The translations under genes and the position numbers were made by a program. A stretch of DNA of 64,000 nucleotides from Haloplanus sp. XH21 (GTDB lineage: Archaea > Halobacteriota > Halobacteria > Halobacteriales > Haloferacaceae): positions 2,356,001-2,420,000 of the forward strand of contig NZ_JALLPL010000001.1 of assembly GCF_023276355.1 (NCBI RefSeq), written 5' to 3'. Below, in pieces: positions 1,466 through 59,289 of the stretch; within the stretch, counting starts at the first letter, position 1, and each line of letters begins with the position of its first letter. The notes under the pieces are model-generated. The model did not search any database, was not told where the DNA came from, and saw nothing but the letters and a program-made list of their open reading frames with translations.

Positions 1466-3175
1466 GTGGTGGGACTGTCGGCACGGACGAGCGGCTCGAT
1501 ACTGATGGGTATCGGCGCGATATTCGCCGCGGTACACCTGTCGACAGCCGTGCGTGTGTTATCGATGCCGGCGCTTCTGGTGGTCGAGGCTCTGGCGCCG
1601 CTTGGCTTCGCCCTCCTCATCGTCGGCATCGGCGCAGCGGTCTATCGCGGCGAAATCGTCCCCGAGCAGTTCGCGGAGCGGGCGCTGCTGTGGGCGGTCG
1701 GCGGCGCCGTGACGCTTGGCGTCGCCACGATACCGCTCTTCGCCGACGCGCTCCTTCGCGGGCAGTTGGCACGGGGAATGCCCCAAACCATCGCCAACGC
1801 GGGGACGCTCGGCGCGTTCGTCGGCCTCGTGGTCGGCGTCTACAACGCCCGCGAGCGACACCAGCGACTGCGGGCCGATCAGTTGAGCCGGATCAACGAC
1901 ACGCTACGCATCGCGACCCAGGAGGTCGTCGACGCGACGGAGCGATCCGAGCTCGAACAGGCGGTCTGCGCTCGTCTCACGCAGTCGCCGCTCTACGACA
2001 GCGCGTGGATCGGGCGCTACCTGCCGGAGACGGCGGTCGTCGACCCGGTCGCGTGGGCGGGACACGACAGTGACTACATCGACTCCCTCGAGATTAGCGT
2101 GGATCCGGACGATCCACTGGGGCAGGGCGCCGGTGGCCAAGCCATCCGCACCAGCGAGATGCAGTGCGTCCAAGACGTGTTCGCAGAGCCCGACATGGAG
2201 CCGTGGTGGGACTTATTCGAGCGCAAGGGCGTCGAATCGGTCGCCGTCGTCCCACTGGTCGGCGCCGAGGACGTGTACGGCTTCCTCAGCATCTACGCCA
2301 ACCGCGTGAACGCGTTCGACGACCGCGAACGGACGGCGCTCGGGGAACTCGGCGAGAGCATCGGGCACGCCATCGATTCGATCCGCGCGCGGCAACAGCT
2401 CGCCGAGCGCGAGCGGGAACTCGCCCGGCAGAACGAACAACTCGACGAGTTCGCCAGCGTCGTCAGCCACGACCTTCGCAATCCCCTGAACGTCGCACAG
2501 GGCTCGCTCGAACTCGCCCGCGAGACCGGCGAGGACGAGCATCTCGAACGGGCGGCGAACGCGCTCGACCGCATGAACGAACTGATCGAGGACGTGCTCA
2601 CCCTGGCACGGAGCGGCCAGGTGGTGACCTCGCTCACCGCCGTCGACCTCGAAGCAGTCGCCGAACGGGCGTGGGCGACGACGGACACCGGGGGTGCGAC
2701 CCTCCGGATCGACGGCGATCTGGGCCGGATCCGAGCCGACGAGAGTCGGCTCGCACAGCTGTTCGAGAACCTGTTTCGGAACAGTGTCGAACACAGTTCG
2801 ACAAACAACCGGACACAGTCCGGCGACAGCGCCGAACACAGTTCCACGAACGACCGGCGCACGGCGGGACCGGAGTTCCGACGCGGCGGTGCCGGTGCCG
2901 GCGACGAGGGCGTGGCGGTCACCGTCGGTCGGTGCGACGACGGCTTCTACGTCGCGGACGACGGCCCGGGCATCCCCGAAGCGGAGCGAGAGCGAGTGCT
3001 CGAGACGGGCTACTCGACGACCGACGAGGGGACCGGACTCGGCCTCAGTATCGTCCGGAGCATCGCGGAGGCTCACGGCTGGACGGTCTCGGTGACCGAA
3101 CGCGAGGCGGACGGCGCTCGCTTCGAGTTCCGGGGCGTCGAGTCGACGAACGGGTCTCATTCCGAAGAATCTTAG
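1466..3175 (+). CDS. Membrane-anchored GAF sensor histidine kinase
   Basis: This 569-residue kinase has several hydrophobic segments in residues 10-125, a GAF-like sensor domain at roughly 145-310, a HisKA dimerisation helix with phospho-acceptor H335 (VVSHDLRNPL), and an HATPase domain with N-box (LFENLFRNSVEH, from about 432), G1 box (DDGPGIP, 498-504) and G2 box (GTGLGLSIV). It should autophosphorylate in response to a membrane or small-molecule signal, but no response regulator gene is nearby, so it is an orphan kinase. Unusually, the ATP-lid side of the N-box carries a 15-residue near-repeat (EHSSTN at 442 and 457). The tandem GTG start at 1466 is supported by the TATA-like box. Confidence 0.88.
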   Translation: MVGLSARTSGSILMGIGAIFAAVHLSTAVRVLSMPALLVVEALAPLGFALLIVGIGAAVYRGEIVPEQFAERALLWAVGGAVTLGVATIPLFADALLRGQLARGMPQTIANAGTLGAFVGLVVGVYNARERHQRLRADQLSRINDTLRIATQEVVDATERSELEQAVCARLTQSPLYDSAWIGRYLPETAVVDPVAWAGHDSDYIDSLEISVDPDDPLGQGAGGQAIRTSEMQCVQDVFAEPDMEPWWDLFERKGVESVAVVPLVGAEDVYGFLSIYANRVNAFDDRERTALGELGESIGHAIDSIRARQQLAERERELARQNEQLDEFASVVSHDLRNPLNVAQGSLELARETGEDEHLERAANALDRMNELIEDVLTLARSGQVVTSLTAVDLEAVAERAWATTDTGGATLRIDGDLGRIRADESRLAQLFENLFRNSVEHSSTNNRTQSGDSAEHSSTNDRRTAGPEFRRGGAGAGDEGVAVTVGRCDDGFYVADDGPGIPEAERERVLETGYSTTDEGTGLGLSIVRSIAEAHGWTVSVTEREADGARFEFRGVESTNGSHSEES

Positions 3176-3197
3176 ACACCGCTGACGACATACCCGT

Positions 3198-3686
3198 ATG
3201 ATTGACCCGGCCGACTATGACGTGCAGGAGCTTCGGTCGGTCGCCGGGATGGACGATGCCGACGCCGAGACTGACGTGACTCTCCCGCGCGCGGCGGGGT
3301 CAAAGTACCGGTCGGCCACCCCGGACGAGCCCACGCACGAACAGTGCGAGCGGCTGGTCGCCGTGGGCGGCGTCGATCCAGCGGTGCTCGGTGAGCGGCC
3401 GTATCTCCCCACGTTCCCGAACGTCCCCGAAGCGCGACGGATCGGTCGCGACTGGATCGCCTATCTAGTGACGACGGCGGGAGAGGCGGAGGCCAAGTCG
3501 GCTATCGGCCGCTATCGGGCACTCGGCTGGATCGGCGAAGACGCGGCGGCGACGTTCCTCGACCGGATCGACGATGCGGCTGCCGCGCTCCAACCGGGCG
3601 ACGAGTCGCTCGACCGAGCGGATCACCTCCTGAGCTTCGGGTACATCATTCGGTTACTCGGGATCGCTGCTCGGAACAACGGGTAG
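3198..3686 (+). CDS. FlaD/FlaE-like archaellar accessory domain protein, stand-alone
   Basis: This 162-residue acidic protein has a C-terminal half that resembles the FlaD/E (ArlD/E) domain: LPTFPNVPEARRIGRDWIAYL, then an alpha-helical core ending GWIGED, then LSFGYIIRLLGI. In archaella, FlaD/E proteins form part of the cytoplasmic motor-associated ring and link to chemotaxis. Here it follows the histidine kinase by 22 bp and no archaellum genes are visible. It could therefore be a paralog tied to signalling or to the pilus genes rather than to rotation. The N-terminal 45 residues are not recognisable. The ATG at 3198 gives the family-like length. Confidence 0.62.
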   Translation: MIDPADYDVQELRSVAGMDDADAETDVTLPRAAGSKYRSATPDEPTHEQCERLVAVGGVDPAVLGERPYLPTFPNVPEARRIGRDWIAYLVTTAGEAEAKSAIGRYRALGWIGEDAAATFLDRIDDAAAALQPGDESLDRADHLLSFGYIIRLLGIAARNNG

Positions 3687-3755
3687 AACGGGTGGCGAGC
3701 GGAGTCAGCCAGGCGAGGCATCTCGACGGTCGAACGACGGAGTAGCTGGTGCTCG

Positions 3756-3833
3756 TTGTGAGTCATCGCACCCCTGTCCGTCTGCCGCCTCGATCAGGTG
3801 TGCACACAGGTCCAAACGCGACTATAGCGACAG
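3756..3833. repeat. Left arm of 79-bp imperfect inverted repeat flanking a DUF4396 gene
   Basis: The outer 16 bases, TTGTGAGTCATCGCAC, are identical to the complement of the right arm at 4664-4742. The inner part shares GTGTGCACAC and TCCAAACG followed by ACTATAG and GACAG. Roughly three quarters of the positions match with one 1-nt gap (hand alignment). Confidence 0.75.
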
Positions 3834-3891
3834 ACTTCAAGTCTCTGAGCAGCAACTGTCCCTTGTCGCAGACTATCTCTAACCCACAACA

Positions 3892-4629
3892 ATGCCACTC
3901 ACTCAGCTCATCACTCAGATCGAACGCGCGTTCGAGCCAGTGCGTGAAATACTGGTGCCAATCCTGTCGAATCCGGCGGTTCTCGGCATGTGGTTGGCTC
4001 TAGTCGGTGTGTCTGTTTCCACCTTATGGTGGGATATCAATAAGCGCAACCAGGCGCTCCCATCACTGATGAAAGGCGTGTGGACGTTAGTAGTTCTCTA
4101 CTCTGGGCCGTTCGGACTAACCCTCTACTGGTACGCTGGCCGAACCCAGATCAGCCAGGACTCCCTGTGGCGTCGCGGCGTTCGATCGACTGCACACTGT
4201 TACTCTGGCTGTGGTGCTGGCGAAGTCGTCGGTGTCACACTCGCCCAAGGAGTTCTCGCGCTGGCCGTTGGCTGGGTCGCAGCCATCACCTTCGGATTTG
4301 CCTACTTGTTCGGATTTGCACTCACCGTTGGGCCACTACTGCAGGAGGGTGTGGCCTTTCGAGACGCAGTAGCAGATGCATTCTACTCTGAGACGCCGTC
4401 GATCACGATTATGGAGATCGTCGCTATCGGTGCAGACCTCCTGCTAGCCTCGCAGGCCCACATGGGAGACATCCTCTTCTGGATGGCACTTGCGTTCTCG
4501 CTCTCGCTGGGCTTTATCGCTGCATTTCCCGTGAACGTCGCTCTCGTCAAGTTCGGAGTCAAGGAAGGGATGAAAAACCCTGCCGAGATGGGGGATCAGA
4601 CTACTGCTCAGGTACAGACAACCGATTAA
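3892..4629 (+). CDS. DUF4396 domain membrane protein
   Basis: This 245-residue integral membrane protein has about six hydrophobic segments. The most telling feature is HCYSGCGAGEVVG (around residue 102), the Cys/His-containing motif of DUF4396 proteins, following an SLWRRGVRSTAH stretch. The function of the family is unknown; the conserved H-C-x2-G-C pattern may suggest metal or redox chemistry at the membrane. The gene is the only one between the 79-bp inverted repeats. Codon use is somewhat less GC-biased than in the core genes to the right, in keeping with transfer. The ATG at 3892 follows a short AT-richer region; no strong Shine-Dalgarno is seen. Confidence 0.72.
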   Translation: MPLTQLITQIERAFEPVREILVPILSNPAVLGMWLALVGVSVSTLWWDINKRNQALPSLMKGVWTLVVLYSGPFGLTLYWYAGRTQISQDSLWRRGVRSTAHCYSGCGAGEVVGVTLAQGVLALAVGWVAAITFGFAYLFGFALTVGPLLQEGVAFRDAVADAFYSETPSITIMEIVAIGADLLLASQAHMGDILFWMALAFSLSLGFIAAFPVNVALVKFGVKEGMKNPAEMGDQTTAQVQTTD

Positions 4630-4663
4630 CCGTGTTCGACCCTGAGGTGTGAAAGACGGTCTA

Positions 4664-4742
4664 CTGTCCCTATAGTAGCGTTTGGAACGGTGTGCACACG
4701 GATCGCACGCTGTCTGGCGAACCGGTGTGCGATGACTCACAA
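4664..4742. repeat. Right arm of 79-bp imperfect inverted repeat
   Basis: This is the reverse complement partner of 3756-3833, ending in GTGCGATGACTCACAA. The next open frame starts 13 bp beyond it (GTG at 4755), so the cassette may have displaced that gene's original 5' end. Confidence 0.75.
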
Positions 4743-4754
4743 GGGCTACAATAG

Positions 4755-5282
4755 GTGTTCGGCGTTGGACTGTGTCTCGCCGCGGCGATGTCCGCAGCGG
4801 GGGTCGAGTTGGCGCACCTCATGTCGGTCGTCATGCACCCGACGAGTTGGCCGACGAAAGTCGTCTCCGATCGCGTCAGCGAGCGAGCGCTCCAGCCAAA
4901 TGACTTTGGCCAGCAACATATCTGTCTCGGGGGCGAATCGTCACCCGTGTTAGTTCACCTACACCAATACAGCGAAGCCGACGCCAACGATGTCGTTCGG
5001 TCGGGAACGGATGTCGACCCGGAAACGGACAAGCAGTCCTACTTCAATGTCGACGACCTCGAACTCGACGAGTGGGAGCGCATGGAGCGAGACGACGACG
5101 TGGTACTTCGGCGGATGCTCACGTACGAGAACGTCACGGCCGTGTCTGCACCCCAAGACACCGGCAGCGTGCCGAGCTCCGACGAACTCCCGGGTCAGAC
5201 GCTACAGTTGCGGAAAGGAAACAGCGAAACCGGCTACGTCGAAAACGCGGAACTGGTAGAGGCGCAGGATCGAGCCCGCTGA
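4755..5282 (+). CDS. Hypothetical protein
   Basis: This is an open frame of 175 codons that I do not recognise. It starts with a short hydrophobic stretch (GLCLAAAMSAAGV), followed by an acidic, soluble-looking body containing NVDDLELDEWERME and LTYENVTAVSAP. The acidic composition looks haloarchaeal, and this is the only long frame here on either strand. The GTG at 4755 lies 13 bp beyond the inverted repeat, so the true N-terminus may have been lost when the cassette inserted. It could be a truncated gene. Confidence that it is coding is moderate; no function is proposed. Confidence 0.4.
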   Translation: MFGVGLCLAAAMSAAGVELAHLMSVVMHPTSWPTKVVSDRVSERALQPNDFGQQHICLGGESSPVLVHLHQYSEADANDVVRSGTDVDPETDKQSYFNVDDLELDEWERMERDDDVVLRRMLTYENVTAVSAPQDTGSVPSSDELPGQTLQLRKGNSETGYVENAELVEAQDRAR

Positions 5283-5431
5283 TTCGGCTCTGTCGAGCTT
5301 CTCCACCCGGAGTTGGTCGGCCACGCGAGGGGCAGATCGGTGCTATCGAGCGTGGTTAGCGCAGGAACTGTCGGCTGGAGCCCCAGCCTGACCCAGTGTT
5401 TTCGAGTTGGTCGATCGGCTTGTTGATCATC

Positions 5432-5600
5432 TTGAAGAGTTCGCTTCCCCGGTAGAACCGATCTGCCCGTCAACTACCCCACCCTACTTCGCTCACCCTG
5501 ACGGGTTCGCTCGTGGAGGGTGTGGCTTGTCCATGAACTCGGCCTCGAACCCGTCTGGGTGGGCGGTAAATCCGTCACTCGGCGTCACTGTTCCAGACTT
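5432..5600 (-). ncRNA. Candidate TnpB guide RNA (omega-RNA), overlapping the tnpB 3' end
   Basis: IS200/IS605 and IS1341-type elements encode the TnpB guide RNA at the transposon right end, overlapping the tnpB 3' end. On the minus strand the sequence after the tnpB stop contains GGGGAAGCGAACTCTTCAA, which looks like a right-end terminus. If the element ends there (5432), the guide would be read from the flanking minus-strand sequence below 5432. The limits are approximate. This is inference from the family, not from a folded structure. Confidence 0.35.
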
Positions 5601-6749
5601 CAGGGCAAGCTGACTGTTGCCCGTCCGCCGAGACGACTGTTGGCCTCGACGGACGTACCGCATCCCGATGTTTTTCGCCGCGTTGTAGTCCGCGTTCGCT
5701 TCCGACTCGCACTTCTGACACTGGAAGTCGTTGCGAGTTGGGCGATTCTCGTCTGCTGTAAAGCCGCACTCGGCGCATCGTTTCGACGTGTACGCCGAAC
5801 CCACTTGTGTAACTGCAATGCCGACTGCTTCGGCCTTGTATTCCACCTGCTCGTACAGCGTTCGGAACGCCCACTTGTGACCCCACGACGCACTCGTTCG
5901 GTCACGGATGTAAGTCAAATCCTCGAACGCGATTACGTCGCACCCGTATCGGAGTGCTTCATCCACGATGGCGTTCGATGCTCGGTGGAGTACGTCACGG
6001 ACGTAGCGACGTTCACGGCCATTCGACTGTTCGAGCGTGCGATGGGCACTTCGCGTTCTGGTCTGTTGGAGTCCGGCGCGTACCTTCTCGAACTCACGGA
6101 GATCGTGGGTCAACTCTCGCCCGCTGAAAAAGTAGGCGGTGCTGGTGACGGCGAGGTTTTCGATACCGAGGTCAACCCCGAGAACCGCTCCGTCCTCGGC
6201 GATGTTCCGTTCGGTATCGTTCTTGTGTCGGCGGAAGCCGATATGCAAAAAGTAGTCGCCGTCGCGGGCGGTGAGCGTACTTTCCGTGACGCTCCACTCC
6301 TCGGAGTCGAGGTACTGCCGTTGGTAGCCGTCGTCGGCGTCAGGGAGGGCAAGGTCACACCGGACGCGACTCTCCGTTGTAGAGAGTGACACTGTATCGT
6401 CGTCGAACAACGTCATCGTCCGGGTGTCATATTTCACCGTTGGTGCGGTGAACGTGGGCTTGCTAATCTTCTTGCCGTTGGACTTGCGTTCGATACAGCC
6501 GGTGATGGCTTGGGCGGCTTGGTGAGTGGCGAGGATCGCGTGTTGGCTTCCGAGGTCGGTTTGCTCGCGCACGTCGTCGTAGGCGAGGGGTTGTACGTCG
6601 CTCTTGGCGTTGCAGACGTTCCACGCCATATCCGTAGCGATTTGGCAACCACGCTTCCACGCAGAGATGGTTTCCTCAAGCAACTCGCGTTGCTCGTCAT
6701 CTACCGAGAGGCGAGTGATTGCCGTCCGACGCACATAGTCGTCCGCCAC
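5493..6749 (-). CDS. tnpB: TnpB (IS1341-type) RNA-guided nuclease, solo
   Basis: The 418-residue protein has the full TnpB architecture: an N-terminal helical/WED part, a split RuvC nuclease with D193 (GVDLGIENLAV), E276 (AFEDLTYIRDR) and D354 (NADYNAAKN), and a zinc ribbon with C325/C328 and C344/C347. All catalytic and metal ligands are present, so it may be active as a guide-RNA-directed DNA nuclease. No tnpA lies beside it, so it is an IS1341-type remnant or domesticated copy. The GTG at 6749 is supported by CTTATAAG 25-32 nt upstream. The last 35 residues are a long tail beyond the usual end. Confidence 0.92.
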   Translation of the reverse strand: MADDYVRRTAITRLSVDDEQRELLEETISAWKRGCQIATDMAWNVCNAKSDVQPLAYDDVREQTDLGSQHAILATHQAAQAITGCIERKSNGKKISKPTFTAPTVKYDTRTMTLFDDDTVSLSTTESRVRCDLALPDADDGYQRQYLDSEEWSVTESTLTARDGDYFLHIGFRRHKNDTERNIAEDGAVLGVDLGIENLAVTSTAYFFSGRELTHDLREFEKVRAGLQQTRTRSAHRTLEQSNGRERRYVRDVLHRASNAIVDEALRYGCDVIAFEDLTYIRDRTSASWGHKWAFRTLYEQVEYKAEAVGIAVTQVGSAYTSKRCAECGFTADENRPTRNDFQCQKCESEANADYNAAKNIGMRYVRRGQQSSRRTGNSQLALKSGTVTPSDGFTAHPDGFEAEFMDKPHPPRANPSG

Positions 6750-8401: not shown

Positions 8402-8735
8402 AGCTATCGAGCTCCATTCACTCCCCTCCTTTCTAGGTTATAGCGGCTTGCGAGGCGTGAACCCTTCGCCTGTTGAGGCAGATGATCGAGAGGGTCCACT
8501 CTGATAGAGACACCTATCCTGGCCAGTTAGACGGATTCGTTCGCGTGTCGTGGCCAGCATCTCATAGTGGCTTCGACTTGTGAGTCACAACGCACTGTCT
8601 TTCGACGAGTCGCCCAACAGCCGTACGTCGAGTGGCCAGTATATATTATGCGGGCTCGACGCGCTACCAGATGACACCCCCTTTCGAGTGTTCGGACTGA
8701 AGGAACTCCACGGATAGGAGTGCGAAACAGCGCTC
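8402..8735. promoter_or_regulatory. Intergenic control region between divergent permease and HTH genes
   Basis: No gene is seen in these 334 bp. The region holds three copies of TGGCCAG (8520, 8551, 8633), a 13-bp palindrome TTGTGAGTCACAA (8578-8590), an AT-rich TATA-like tract (TATATATTATG at 8640-8650), and an inverted repeat ACTCCACG/CGTGGAGT (8705-8712 and 8735-8742) that overlaps the HTH start. These are plausible regulator sites, possibly for the now-broken HTH regulator. Confidence 0.35.
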
Positions 8736-36164: not shown

Positions 36165-36209
36165 GCGTGTAATTTAGCGGTGAAACGGTGAAAACGATTT
36201 CGGAGGGTT

Positions 36210-36287
36210 ATACTGTCGGCTGTAACTGTTCCGAGATATTCGCATCTTGGATGGGGAATCTCGTGATCAACTTATAGCCGACAGTAT
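36210..36287. repeat. 78-bp palindromic element, copy A
   Basis: The outer inverted repeat ATACTGTCGGCT / AGCCGACAGTAT is perfect over 12 bp. An inner stem uses CGAGAT / ATCTCG. The core TGTAACTGTT is shared with copies at 48622 and 59166. The right end touches the S19e stop codon (TAA, 36287-36289 on the plus coordinate). It lies in the S19e-PDCD5 gap, so in transcript terms it directly follows S19e. Confidence 0.7.
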
Positions 36288-36742
36288 TAGGCGTACTTCT
36301 CGAGTTCCGGCCGATCGAGTTCGTCGAGGACATCCGCGGCGACCTCGTCGAGGAGACTGCGACCCTCGGGAGTGGCGACGCGACCCTCGCCCTGGGCGAC
36401 CGAGATCAGATCCTCGTCTTCGAGCTGCTGGAGGATCGTTCGGATGATGTTCTTGCTGCCGGGTTCGGCGTGCGAGGGCGCGACGCGATAGCGCGTCGAG
36501 CCCTGTTTGCTGTCGCCGTACGCCGTCGAGAGGCGGTCGACACCCACGGGGCCGTCGACGGCGACTTTCCGGAGCAGGCTCGCCGCGCGAACCGCCCAGA
36601 AGTCCTCCTGCTGGGGCGGGAGTTCCTTGCTCGAACTGGTCTTGGTGTAGTTCGCCCAGTCGGGCTCCTCGATGCGATCGTCGAGCCGGTCGGCGAGCGC
36701 GTCGATGAGCGCGTCGGCCGGCACGTCGTAGAGGGTTACCAT
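36287..36742 (-). CDS. rps19e: Small ribosomal subunit protein S19e
   Basis: This 151-residue protein is the archaeal/eukaryal 30S protein S19e. It begins TLYDVPADALIDALADRL and has DDRIEEPDWANYTKTS, FWAVRAASLLRKVAVDGPVGVDRLS and the C-terminal NIIRTILQQLEDEDLIS winged-helix part. The ATG at 36742 is preceded at about 28 nt by GTTTAAAC, giving a leaderless transcript. It heads the operon S19e-PDCD5-PP-loop-yqeC. The stop codon overlaps a palindromic repeat element by one base. Confidence 0.95.
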   Translation of the reverse strand: MVTLYDVPADALIDALADRLDDRIEEPDWANYTKTSSSKELPPQQEDFWAVRAASLLRKVAVDGPVGVDRLSTAYGDSKQGSTRYRVAPSHAEPGSKNIIRTILQQLEDEDLISVAQGEGRVATPEGRSLLDEVAADVLDELDRPELEKYA

Positions 36743-43732: not shown

Positions 43733-43743
43733 GCGCCGCTCAT

Positions 43744-43817
43744 ACGGAGTATTGTACTGTGTTCCAGTGGGTCGCCAAGACGGTCCGGCGTCCCACCAGG
43801 CATGGCTTATACCCCGT
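43744..43817. repeat. 74-bp palindromic element, copy B
   Basis: Outer inverted repeat ACGGAGTAT / ATACCCCGT (8 of 9 pairs). The inner stem uses GTGGGtCGCC / GGCGtCCCAC. TTGTACTG replaces the TGTAACTG core of other copies. It fills the convergent gap between lysS (stop 12 nt before) and the cupin gene (stop 2 nt after). Confidence 0.75.
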
Positions 43818-43818
43818 C

Positions 43819-44157
43819 TCAGTCCTGCCAGTCCGGATCGGTCCGTGGCGGGCTGAACACGTCGACCCCCTCGAAGGGTTCGTCGCCGCGATTTTCCACG
43901 GCGTGGGGTTCCTCGCCCGGGATGACGTAGGCATCGCCCGCCGACACGACGCGCTCCTCGCCACCGATCAGAAACACCGCTTCGCCGCGAGTGGCGAAGC
44001 CGGCCTGTTCGTGTGAATGACTGTGTTCGGGCACCGTCGCGCCCGCGTCGATCGTATACCCCTGGACGCTGATCCGGTCCCCTGCGACCAGCTGCGAGAG
44101 GTGGACGTCCGGCACGGCCTCGACGGTCGCGGGGTCGTCGGTCGAACTGATCTCCAT
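43819..44157 (-). CDS. Small cupin-domain protein
   Basis: This 112-residue single-cupin protein has the two metal motifs in order: VPEHSHSHEQAGFATRGEAV (H-x-H..E-G) and later PGEEPHAVENRGDE (P-x4-H). A bound divalent metal is therefore likely. Roles range from sensing to small dioxygenase chemistry; not determinable here. The ATG at 44157 (MEISSTD) is chosen over 44184. It converges with lysS across copy B of the palindromic element. Confidence 0.85.
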   Translation of the reverse strand: MEISSTDDPATVEAVPDVHLSQLVAGDRISVQGYTIDAGATVPEHSHSHEQAGFATRGEAVFLIGGEERVVSAGDAYVIPGEEPHAVENRGDEPFEGVDVFSPPRTDPDWQD

Positions 44158-48095: not shown

Positions 48096-48620
48096 ATGGA
48101 GCGGACGCCAACGGGCACCCCAGTCGGCGTGGACGACCCCTACGCCCACGCCGGCCGGTGTGACCATCTCACGTCCGACGGCCGGTGTCGATACGCCCTG
48201 GAGCGCGACGGCGACGACCCCGCGTTCGCGGCCGAACGCCGCGCCGAGGACTACGACTGCGTCGCCGCCGACGGCGACTGGCGCGACTGCCCACAGTATC
48301 GCTCGACGACCGACGGTCGTGAATGTCGCCGGTGCGGCCTCGAAGAGGTGCGGATGGCCCACGACGACACCCGGCCGCTGCTGGAGGAGCATCACCTGTC
48401 GTATGGATCCGCGGAGACGACGGACGGGGAGACGACCCACGAGATAACGGTCGCGCTGTGTCGGTGGTGTCACGCGAAAGTCCACGCCGGCCGGGCCCGA
48501 ATCGACGACGACGCGACGCCCGACACGGCGGCATTGGAAGCCCGCGAGGCGCGCCGGAGCAAGGAACAGGCGGAGTTGGGGTTTCAGACGGCCGCGGAGC
48601 GCGACGGGCGCGCGGAGTGA
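48096..48620 (+). CDS. HNH-nuclease-like zinc protein
   Basis: This 174-residue protein resembles a haloarchaeal family of HNH-type zinc proteins. Cysteines appear as CDHLTSDGRC and CRRCGLEE, then EEHHLSYG and CRWCHAKVH, which together look like an HNH nuclease core with zinc ligands. Specific function is unknown; DNA processing is possible. The ATG at 48096 gives MERTPTGTP; the long upstream open frame is an overlap artefact of the copper oxidase gene. Repeat copy C starts 2 nt after the stop. Confidence 0.7.
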   Translation: MERTPTGTPVGVDDPYAHAGRCDHLTSDGRCRYALERDGDDPAFAAERRAEDYDCVAADGDWRDCPQYRSTTDGRECRRCGLEEVRMAHDDTRPLLEEHHLSYGSAETTDGETTHEITVALCRWCHAKVHAGRARIDDDATPDTAALEAREARRSKEQAELGFQTAAERDGRAE

Positions 48621-48621
48621 T

Positions 48622-48699
48622 ACGGAGTATTGTAACTGTTTGCCGGTGATTCGCCTGACCTTCCCGGCGAACCGCCGGGACTGACCGACGATACTCCGT
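48622..48699. repeat. 78-bp palindromic element, copy C
   Basis: The outer inverted repeat ACGGAGTAT / ATACTCCGT is perfect over 9 bp. Inner stem: CCGGTGATTCGCC / GGCGAACCGCCGG (11 of 13 pairs). The TGTAACTGTT core is present. It starts 2 nt after the HNH-like gene's stop codon. Confidence 0.8.
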
Positions 48700-48749
48700 C
48701 CGAGACGCTTCCGATTCGCTTTTAGGCGCTACCGGACTACGACGGCGTA

Positions 48750-58350: not shown

Positions 58351-59163
58351 ATGTCCCCGCTCGACGAACGGACGACGGCCCACCTTCGGGCCGTCGTCGT
58401 CGCCCTAGTGGTGTCCGCCGTCGGCCTCGGCGTCGGCCTCGCGCTGGTGTACGTCCTCCTGCGACTCCTCGCTACGGTCGGCGTCGACCTCTCGCCGGCC
58501 CGGTTTCTCGTCGTCTCGCTCGTGGCGATGCAAGGCCTCGCCTTCGGTGGCGTCGCCCTCGGCTATCTCACTGTCCACGGCTGGGCCCTCGATGACCTCG
58601 GCGTTCGCGTGCCGAATCTGCGCGACCTCCTCGTCATCGTCGCTGGCTACGCGGCGGCCATCGTGGCCGCCATCAGCGGAGCGGTCGTCATCACCATCAC
58701 GAGCGTCCCCGCGGGCGAGAATCAGGTCTCACAGATCATCGGCGCCGACGCGAGCGTCCTGTTGTGGCTGATTCCCGCCTCGTTTCTCCTCATCGGCCCC
58801 GGTGAGGAACTGCTCTTTCGCGGCATCGTCCAGAGTCGACTCCGGGAGTCGTTCGACGCCATCCCGGGCGTAGTGCTGGCCAGCGCCATCTTCGCCGCCA
58901 TTCACTACATCGCGCTGACGGGCGGCGCGGGCGGGCGCCTCGTCACCGTGACGGTGCTCTTTTTCCCCGCACTCGTGTTCGGTGCCGTCTACGAACTGAC
59001 CGACAACCTCGTCGTGCCCGCGCTGGTCCACGGCGCGTACAACGCGACGCTGTTCGCGATCACCTACCTCGCGATCCAACTGAGCGAGTCCGGGGCCTTC
59101 CCCGACGAGTCGGCGACGACAAGCCACCTCCTCGTCGAGGGTCTGAGCGCCGTCCCGGTCTGA
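58351..59163 (+). CDS. CPBP-family intramembrane metalloprotease, second copy
   Basis: This 270-residue protein has eight hydrophobic helices and the CPBP motifs: GEELLFRGIVQ, FAAIHYIALTGG, and VHGAYNATLFAI. It is similar in layout to the protein at 27462-28403 (e.g. both have an ALTG after motif 2 and a VHG-YNA motif 3). The ATG at 58351 is used; the frame extends to 58309. Target unknown. Repeat copy D follows the stop. Confidence 0.88.
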   Translation: MSPLDERTTAHLRAVVVALVVSAVGLGVGLALVYVLLRLLATVGVDLSPARFLVVSLVAMQGLAFGGVALGYLTVHGWALDDLGVRVPNLRDLLVIVAGYAAAIVAAISGAVVITITSVPAGENQVSQIIGADASVLLWLIPASFLLIGPGEELLFRGIVQSRLRESFDAIPGVVLASAIFAAIHYIALTGGAGGRLVTVTVLFFPALVFGAVYELTDNLVVPALVHGAYNATLFAITYLAIQLSESGAFPDESATTSHLLVEGLSAVPV

Positions 59164-59165
59164 TC

Positions 59166-59241
59166 CGGATTATTGTAACTGTTTACCGGTGGGTCGCTGG
59201 GGCGGTCCAGCGACCCACCGGTACTGGCTGACAATAAACCG
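59166..59241. repeat. 76-bp palindromic element, copy D
   Basis: The outer inverted repeat CGGATTATTGT / ACAATAAACCG pairs 10 of 11. The inner stem is a perfect 15-bp hairpin, CCGGTGGGTCGCTGG / CCAGCGACCCACCGG, with a 6-nt loop GGCGGT. The TGTAACTGTT core lies between. It starts 2 nt after the stop codon of the CPBP gene. Confidence 0.85.
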
Positions 59242-59289
59242 TATGAGGGGAACGGAACCCTTACCGCCGCGCCCCGAAAAGGCGAGCGT

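Follow-up and report, generated by a model that had tools for sequence, protein, structure and literature searches.

The two inverted arms that enclose a DUF4396 gene in Haloplanus sp. XH21 are, very probably, two independent copies of an 84-bp IS630/Tc1-mariner-type MITE, here called family A, which is orphaned in this genome and came to flank the gene through chance insertions. A preliminary description of the window (the whole stretch of 64,000 nucleotides that was analysed) had placed 79-bp inverted arms at 3756-3834 and 4664-4742. Their location is borne out, with complementarity of 89% over 36 nt and 88% over 25 nt and a local alignment score of 42 between left and right arm, where the best of 2000 shuffles scored 15, and their outer 16 bp are indeed identical. 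The inverted repeat is thus real, but its 79-bp extent is a clipped view of a palindromic unit of about 84 bp that runs from TATAGTAG to CTACTATA. The left copy is inverted relative to the right one and has kept its inner end, TATAGTCGC, intact, while its outer end is decayed (Table 1). No transposase lies inside the arms and a single membrane-protein gene is enclosed, both as originally stated; the protein is a DUF4396 member (PF14342, E 7e-31) whose HCYSGC fits the claimed HCxxGC motif. The partly similar sequence reported at 8578-8595 is present but is no copy of the family, since R1, a covariance model of family A built from 21 copies, scores nothing there (E<=1).

Table 1. Coordinates of the DUF4396 gene and of the two family A copies beside it, in positions of the window.
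Feature	Position	Strand	Evidence and remarks
Left MITE copy (family A)	3741..3826, boundary approximate	-	R1 model 69.6 bits, E 1e-20 at 3740-3831; family alignment
DUF4396 membrane-protein gene, HCYSGC motif	3892..4629	+	PF14342
Right MITE copy (family A), TATAGTAGCGTTTGGAACGG...GACTCACAAGGGCTACAATA	4671..4753	+	Nearly intact; flanks C and G; R1 model 91.7 bits, E 4e-28; family alignment

Aligned copies give a consensus composed of TATAGTAGCGTTTGGAACTGTTTGCACACCTGATCGC, a loop of about 10 nt and GCGATCAGGTGTGCGATGACTTACAAAGGCTACTATA, 84 bp in all and with sharp boundaries. From 117 copies collected, 10 lacked a recognisable boundary and were set aside, leaving 107, and two more were excluded for their length, leaving 105; the length is exactly 84 bp in 95 of the 107 with both boundaries recognised. 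On its own chromosome (G000) the element is scattered, with some 20 copies found by BLAST and about 23 in all, and, the unit being a near-palindrome, most of the BLAST matches fall on both strands. Placement is intergenic: 19 of 20 own-genome copies examined overlap no predicted gene, the exception overlaps a 79-aa ORF that is itself weak, and a few meet the end of a gene, by 4 bp at most. As is typical of MITEs, the unit carries no transposase gene, is multicopy (28 copies in genome G004, for instance) and varies in position.

The search for the arms genome-wide and in other haloarchaea, suggested in the preliminary description, shows the family to be dispersed in the own genome, the genus and the order. 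R1 finds it in all 12 genomes of the genus (weakly in G005 and G011) and in 38 of 146 genomes and 20 of 57 genera of the order, several of whose genomes hold at least 29 scored copies each, and its presence is patchy inside genera and families. Spread by viruses or plasmids was considered and rejected: blastn against phage and plasmid collections returned no match to family A, no viral contig bears its end pattern, and a search for viral relatives of the DUF4396 protein found none. At two loci of one genome (L086 and L087 of G070), an N is bordered by family A copies on either side, which may stem from contig ends joined in the assembly.

Amplification has been recent in G004, where 57 end matches pair up into 28 complete copies, with one left over, and where 19 of the 21 copies read are near-identical at unrelated sites. 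When the flanks of copies in G000, G001 and G004 were compared, no copy occupied the same position in two genomes, and for several copies the orthologous intergenic regions of congeners lack the element. The cleanest such empty site, that of G000 copy L076 in G010, aligns over 92 bp ungapped with the junction CTAG, which implies a TA target duplication; a second readable site, that of G001 copy L137 in G004, has the length expected of a TA duplication. Insertion at TA with duplication of TA, a feature of IS630-type MITEs, is accordingly seen on two clean sites only. The junction of L109 against G010 reads TG instead of TA, and the empty site of L080 in G007 has a 1-nt gap; the remaining orthologous regions, compared by multi-locus alignments of joined flanks in which some rows had the wrong orientation, are too diverged for the exact junction to be read, and empty-site queries with L109 and L162 matched different replicons or rearranged regions. 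For the DUF4396 segment itself no clean empty site was obtained, the window's flanking genes lying far apart in those relatives that allowed a comparison. The bases flanking the element are C...G in 60 of 107 MITE copies and in 48 of 69 IS630 copies, so both favour CTAG, the preferred target of IS630.

Both ends of the MITE match those of IS630, mostly with the correct left/right polarity. IS630-family elements of G004 and G003, whose transposase belongs to NF033545 (IS630), start and finish with TATAGTA, and parent-type ends read TATAGTARYCGTTAGAACTTTYYRCTC and TATAGTAGNNNTTAGAARTAATTGCTCAC. A scan of named genomes yielded 80 loci of close IS630 relatives, of which nine without both ends were dropped, and the ends of the other 71 served to build IRL and IRR profiles, with the TATAGTA seed excluded and softer pseudocounts, against which the 105 MITE copies were scored. 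The half concerned reached the top 0.1% of window positions for its own IS end in 99 of 105 left and 88 of 105 right halves, and the own-end score was the higher one in 72 left and 85 right halves, a preference for side that is not absolute. Profiles with harsh pseudocounts, applied to the first 40 copies only, gave a weaker result (mean percentile 99.94th on the left and 95.9th on the right). The terminal inverted repeats are thus homologous to those of autonomous IS630 elements, with partial similarity: a transposase with the same ends, which the preliminary description proposed to look for, was found insofar as IS630 ends are similar, but no IS turned up with exactly the MITE's ends, the closest agreeing at 19/25 and reading TAGAA where the MITE reads TGNAA. 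An exact match to TATAGTAGCNNNTGMAAC would mark the true IS630 parent. Other IS630 groups in G004, with ends ATAGTG... and TCATACGG..., were rejected as parents on the ground that their ends do not match family A, and an IS630 element lying between two element copies at L201, considered as an autonomous version, likewise has other ends (read on the near-identical copy L202).

At two loci, L344 (G093) and L308 (Natrarchaeobius chitinivorans), an IS630 copy sits inside a family A element, at the same CTAG and in opposite orientations, and once the IS630 and one TA are taken out, the MITE has its expected length again and the site reads CTAG. The co-occurrence of family A with a DDE_3 (IS630) transposase is weak over the 146 genomes (17/38 against 28/108, one-sided Fisher p=0.027), and a search of 10 element-bearing genomes gave no DDE_3 match in five of them (G000, G135, G007, G082 and G058).

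Family A appears to be moved by a common transposase family, IS630. The 84-bp MITE would be little more than a left and a right inverted IS630/Tc1-mariner-type end joined head to head, and each copy would be an almost perfect palindrome for this reason. Two subterminal boxes (left AACTGTTTGC and right AAGTCATCGC, read inward) would be recognised and bound in trans by a transposase of the IS630 family, which would excise the copy and place it at a new TA, with CTAG as the preferred context and duplication of the TA. The inverted pair around DUF4396 would then have arisen incidentally, from two insertions close to the same gene. In Haloplanus sp. XH21, where no IS630 transposase was found, the copies are presumably stranded.

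The gene between the arms has a composition of its own. Its GC content is 56.5%, against 66.6% for the window, and its third-position GC is 64%, against 84% for the neighbouring kinase gene. The nearest plasmid relative, from Salinigranum rubrum, is 82% identical, and plasmid homologues sit with genes for plastocyanin, DUF302, SHOCT, multicopper oxidase or metal P-type ATPase. DUF4396 proteins are also mentioned on the flanks of a metal-resistance cluster (PMC7760498). Being GC-poor and resembling genes of plasmid copper clusters, the gene was probably acquired; it would be an accessory gene for metal handling, with two MITE copies that inserted next to it and did not carry it.

The preliminary description suggested that repeats and gene could form a passenger-carrying non-autonomous transposon; on this model the whole of 3741-4753 would move together, and the arms would be its terminal inverted repeats. 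Part of this stands, namely that the arms are non-autonomous transposon DNA with ends like those of transposase-bearing IS630, but the unit is each arm, a complete and dispersed MITE. In favour of the larger unit are the position of inverted copies on either side of a gene that is GC-poor and apparently acquired, the transposase-type ends of each copy, and the number of close copy pairs, which is somewhat above chance (three pairs within 3.1 kb against 0.6 expected, P=0.02). The whole segment, however, is present once in the own genome, whereas arms occur singly elsewhere; the left arm has a decayed outer end, with no TA at the expected outer boundary, so that intact outer ends with a flanking target duplication, as in a composite transposon, are lacking, and the same cargo was not found between arms elsewhere. 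Nor does the repeat occur near homologues of the gene, at six genome loci and five plasmid loci (five of 81 matching plasmid records read), and the other close pairs, in either orientation, enclose predicted genes that are ordinary-looking and unrelated among those listed, and a common passenger or transposase between such pairs was rejected on that ground. The preliminary description had looked to arms unique to the locus, in conserved synteny with the gene, as evidence against such a transposon; this is not what was found, and the model fails on the other grounds just given. We consider it highly improbable for this segment, and a gene-moving role of copy pairs unlikely.

Two further readings take the hairpin itself as the starting point. 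The copies could be a conserved host regulatory or RNA hairpin (a small RNA, terminator or protein-binding site), repetitive through serving many genes, and their nearly always intergenic location would fit, as would outer-stem bases that vary between genera while complementarity is largely kept. Their sites, on the other hand, show no conservation from one congener to another, one species has bursts of near-identical copies, presence is patchy, and the flanking genes and gap lengths show no evident pattern; only one of 17 predicted pairs shows double-sided change in the own genome, and no Rfam family reaches the gathering score in 3000-5500. On this absence of an Rfam match and the little covariation within the genome an RNA gene was rejected, and the host hairpin as a whole is very unlikely. 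Bacterial REPINs and BIMEs are short intergenic palindromes with GTAG/CTAC near their ends, defined by insertion without target duplication and by a RAYT transposase partner, and REPINs are palindromic units of a size similar to that of the 84-bp element. The GTAGC...GCTAC ends and hairpin shape of family A recall them and could suggest movement via single-stranded DNA by a Y1 HUH (RAYT-type) transposase, but the TA-length junctions, the CTAG preference and the IS630-like ends, by which family A differs from REPINs and BIMEs, would be unexpected for such an element, and we hold this the least probable of the alternatives, with hardly any weight.

Read as an IS630-type MITE, family A still departs from the systems it resembles. 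Haloarchaeal IS630 elements (about 1059 bp, PF13358/NF033545 transposase) have in common with it their TATAGTA starts, left and right subterminal boxes and C...G around TA, whereas the 84-bp element carries no gene and differs in its outer stem and inner 15 bp, and no exact match of the ends was found. Like MITEs generally, it has transposon-related terminal repeats, target duplication, a dispersed distribution and no transposase, sometimes with no functional parent in the genome, but at only about 84 bp it is essentially two ends fused around a loop of about 10 nt. In Haloquadratum, MITEs are described along with short mobile repeats of 80-110 bp whose mobilisation is called enigmatic (PMC3119063). 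The SMR-A and SMR-B repeats of Haloquadratum walsbyi share with family A their 80-110-bp size, prominent inverted terminal repeats, multiple copies and want of a transposase; compared by description only, they differ in that they are reported to have no relation to known transposons and no target duplication, and SMR-A is described there as preferring IS605-type palindromes (PMC3119063). Nothing recognised as family A appeared in the literature searched.

What seemed a single oddity is in this light a widespread repeat family to which a transposase family and a target site can be assigned. Family A aids the annotation of haloarchaeal intergenic DNA and provides insertion markers for strain history, and its reading as an IS630 MITE offers a testable explanation for tiny haloarchaeal mobile repeats whose mover was previously unknown. 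One may go further and imagine, although we think it rather doubtful, an order-wide haloarchaeal system of ultrashort "fused-end" IS630 hairpins, comprising family A, a second family B and further palindromes near 36204 and 43736, which keep their complementarity while their outer sequences change between genera, are of the same kind as the short mobile repeats of Haloquadratum, and are perhaps retained as the near-perfect hairpin is itself functional, in a transposition route or at host gene ends.

Some other elements were noted in passing. A TnpB gene (RNA-guided nuclease family) lies at 5493-6749 of the window on the minus strand, with no TnpA-sized neighbour noticed, and an ORF of 220 aa for an IS6-family transposase at 732-1394, also on the minus strand. 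The palindromic family B, TGATACGGATTATTGTAACTG...GACTTACAATAAACCGTATGA, occurs in the window at 59157-59250 and 48614-48707 and, within 246 kb searched, at L077:4108, L078:3018 and 7053, L085:4170 and L066:7353; its central AACTG/GACTT boxes are common with family A, its ends are other ones, and its TGATACGG tips resemble a third group of IS630 elements in G004. Two other palindromes of the window, at 36204-36295 and 43734-43827, show a weak relation to family B, the former with ends ATACTGTCGGCTGTAACTG...TTATAGCCGACAGTAT, and because the flanks of the family A copy at L078:4062 match the palindrome at 36204, family A appears to have inserted there into an element of that type.
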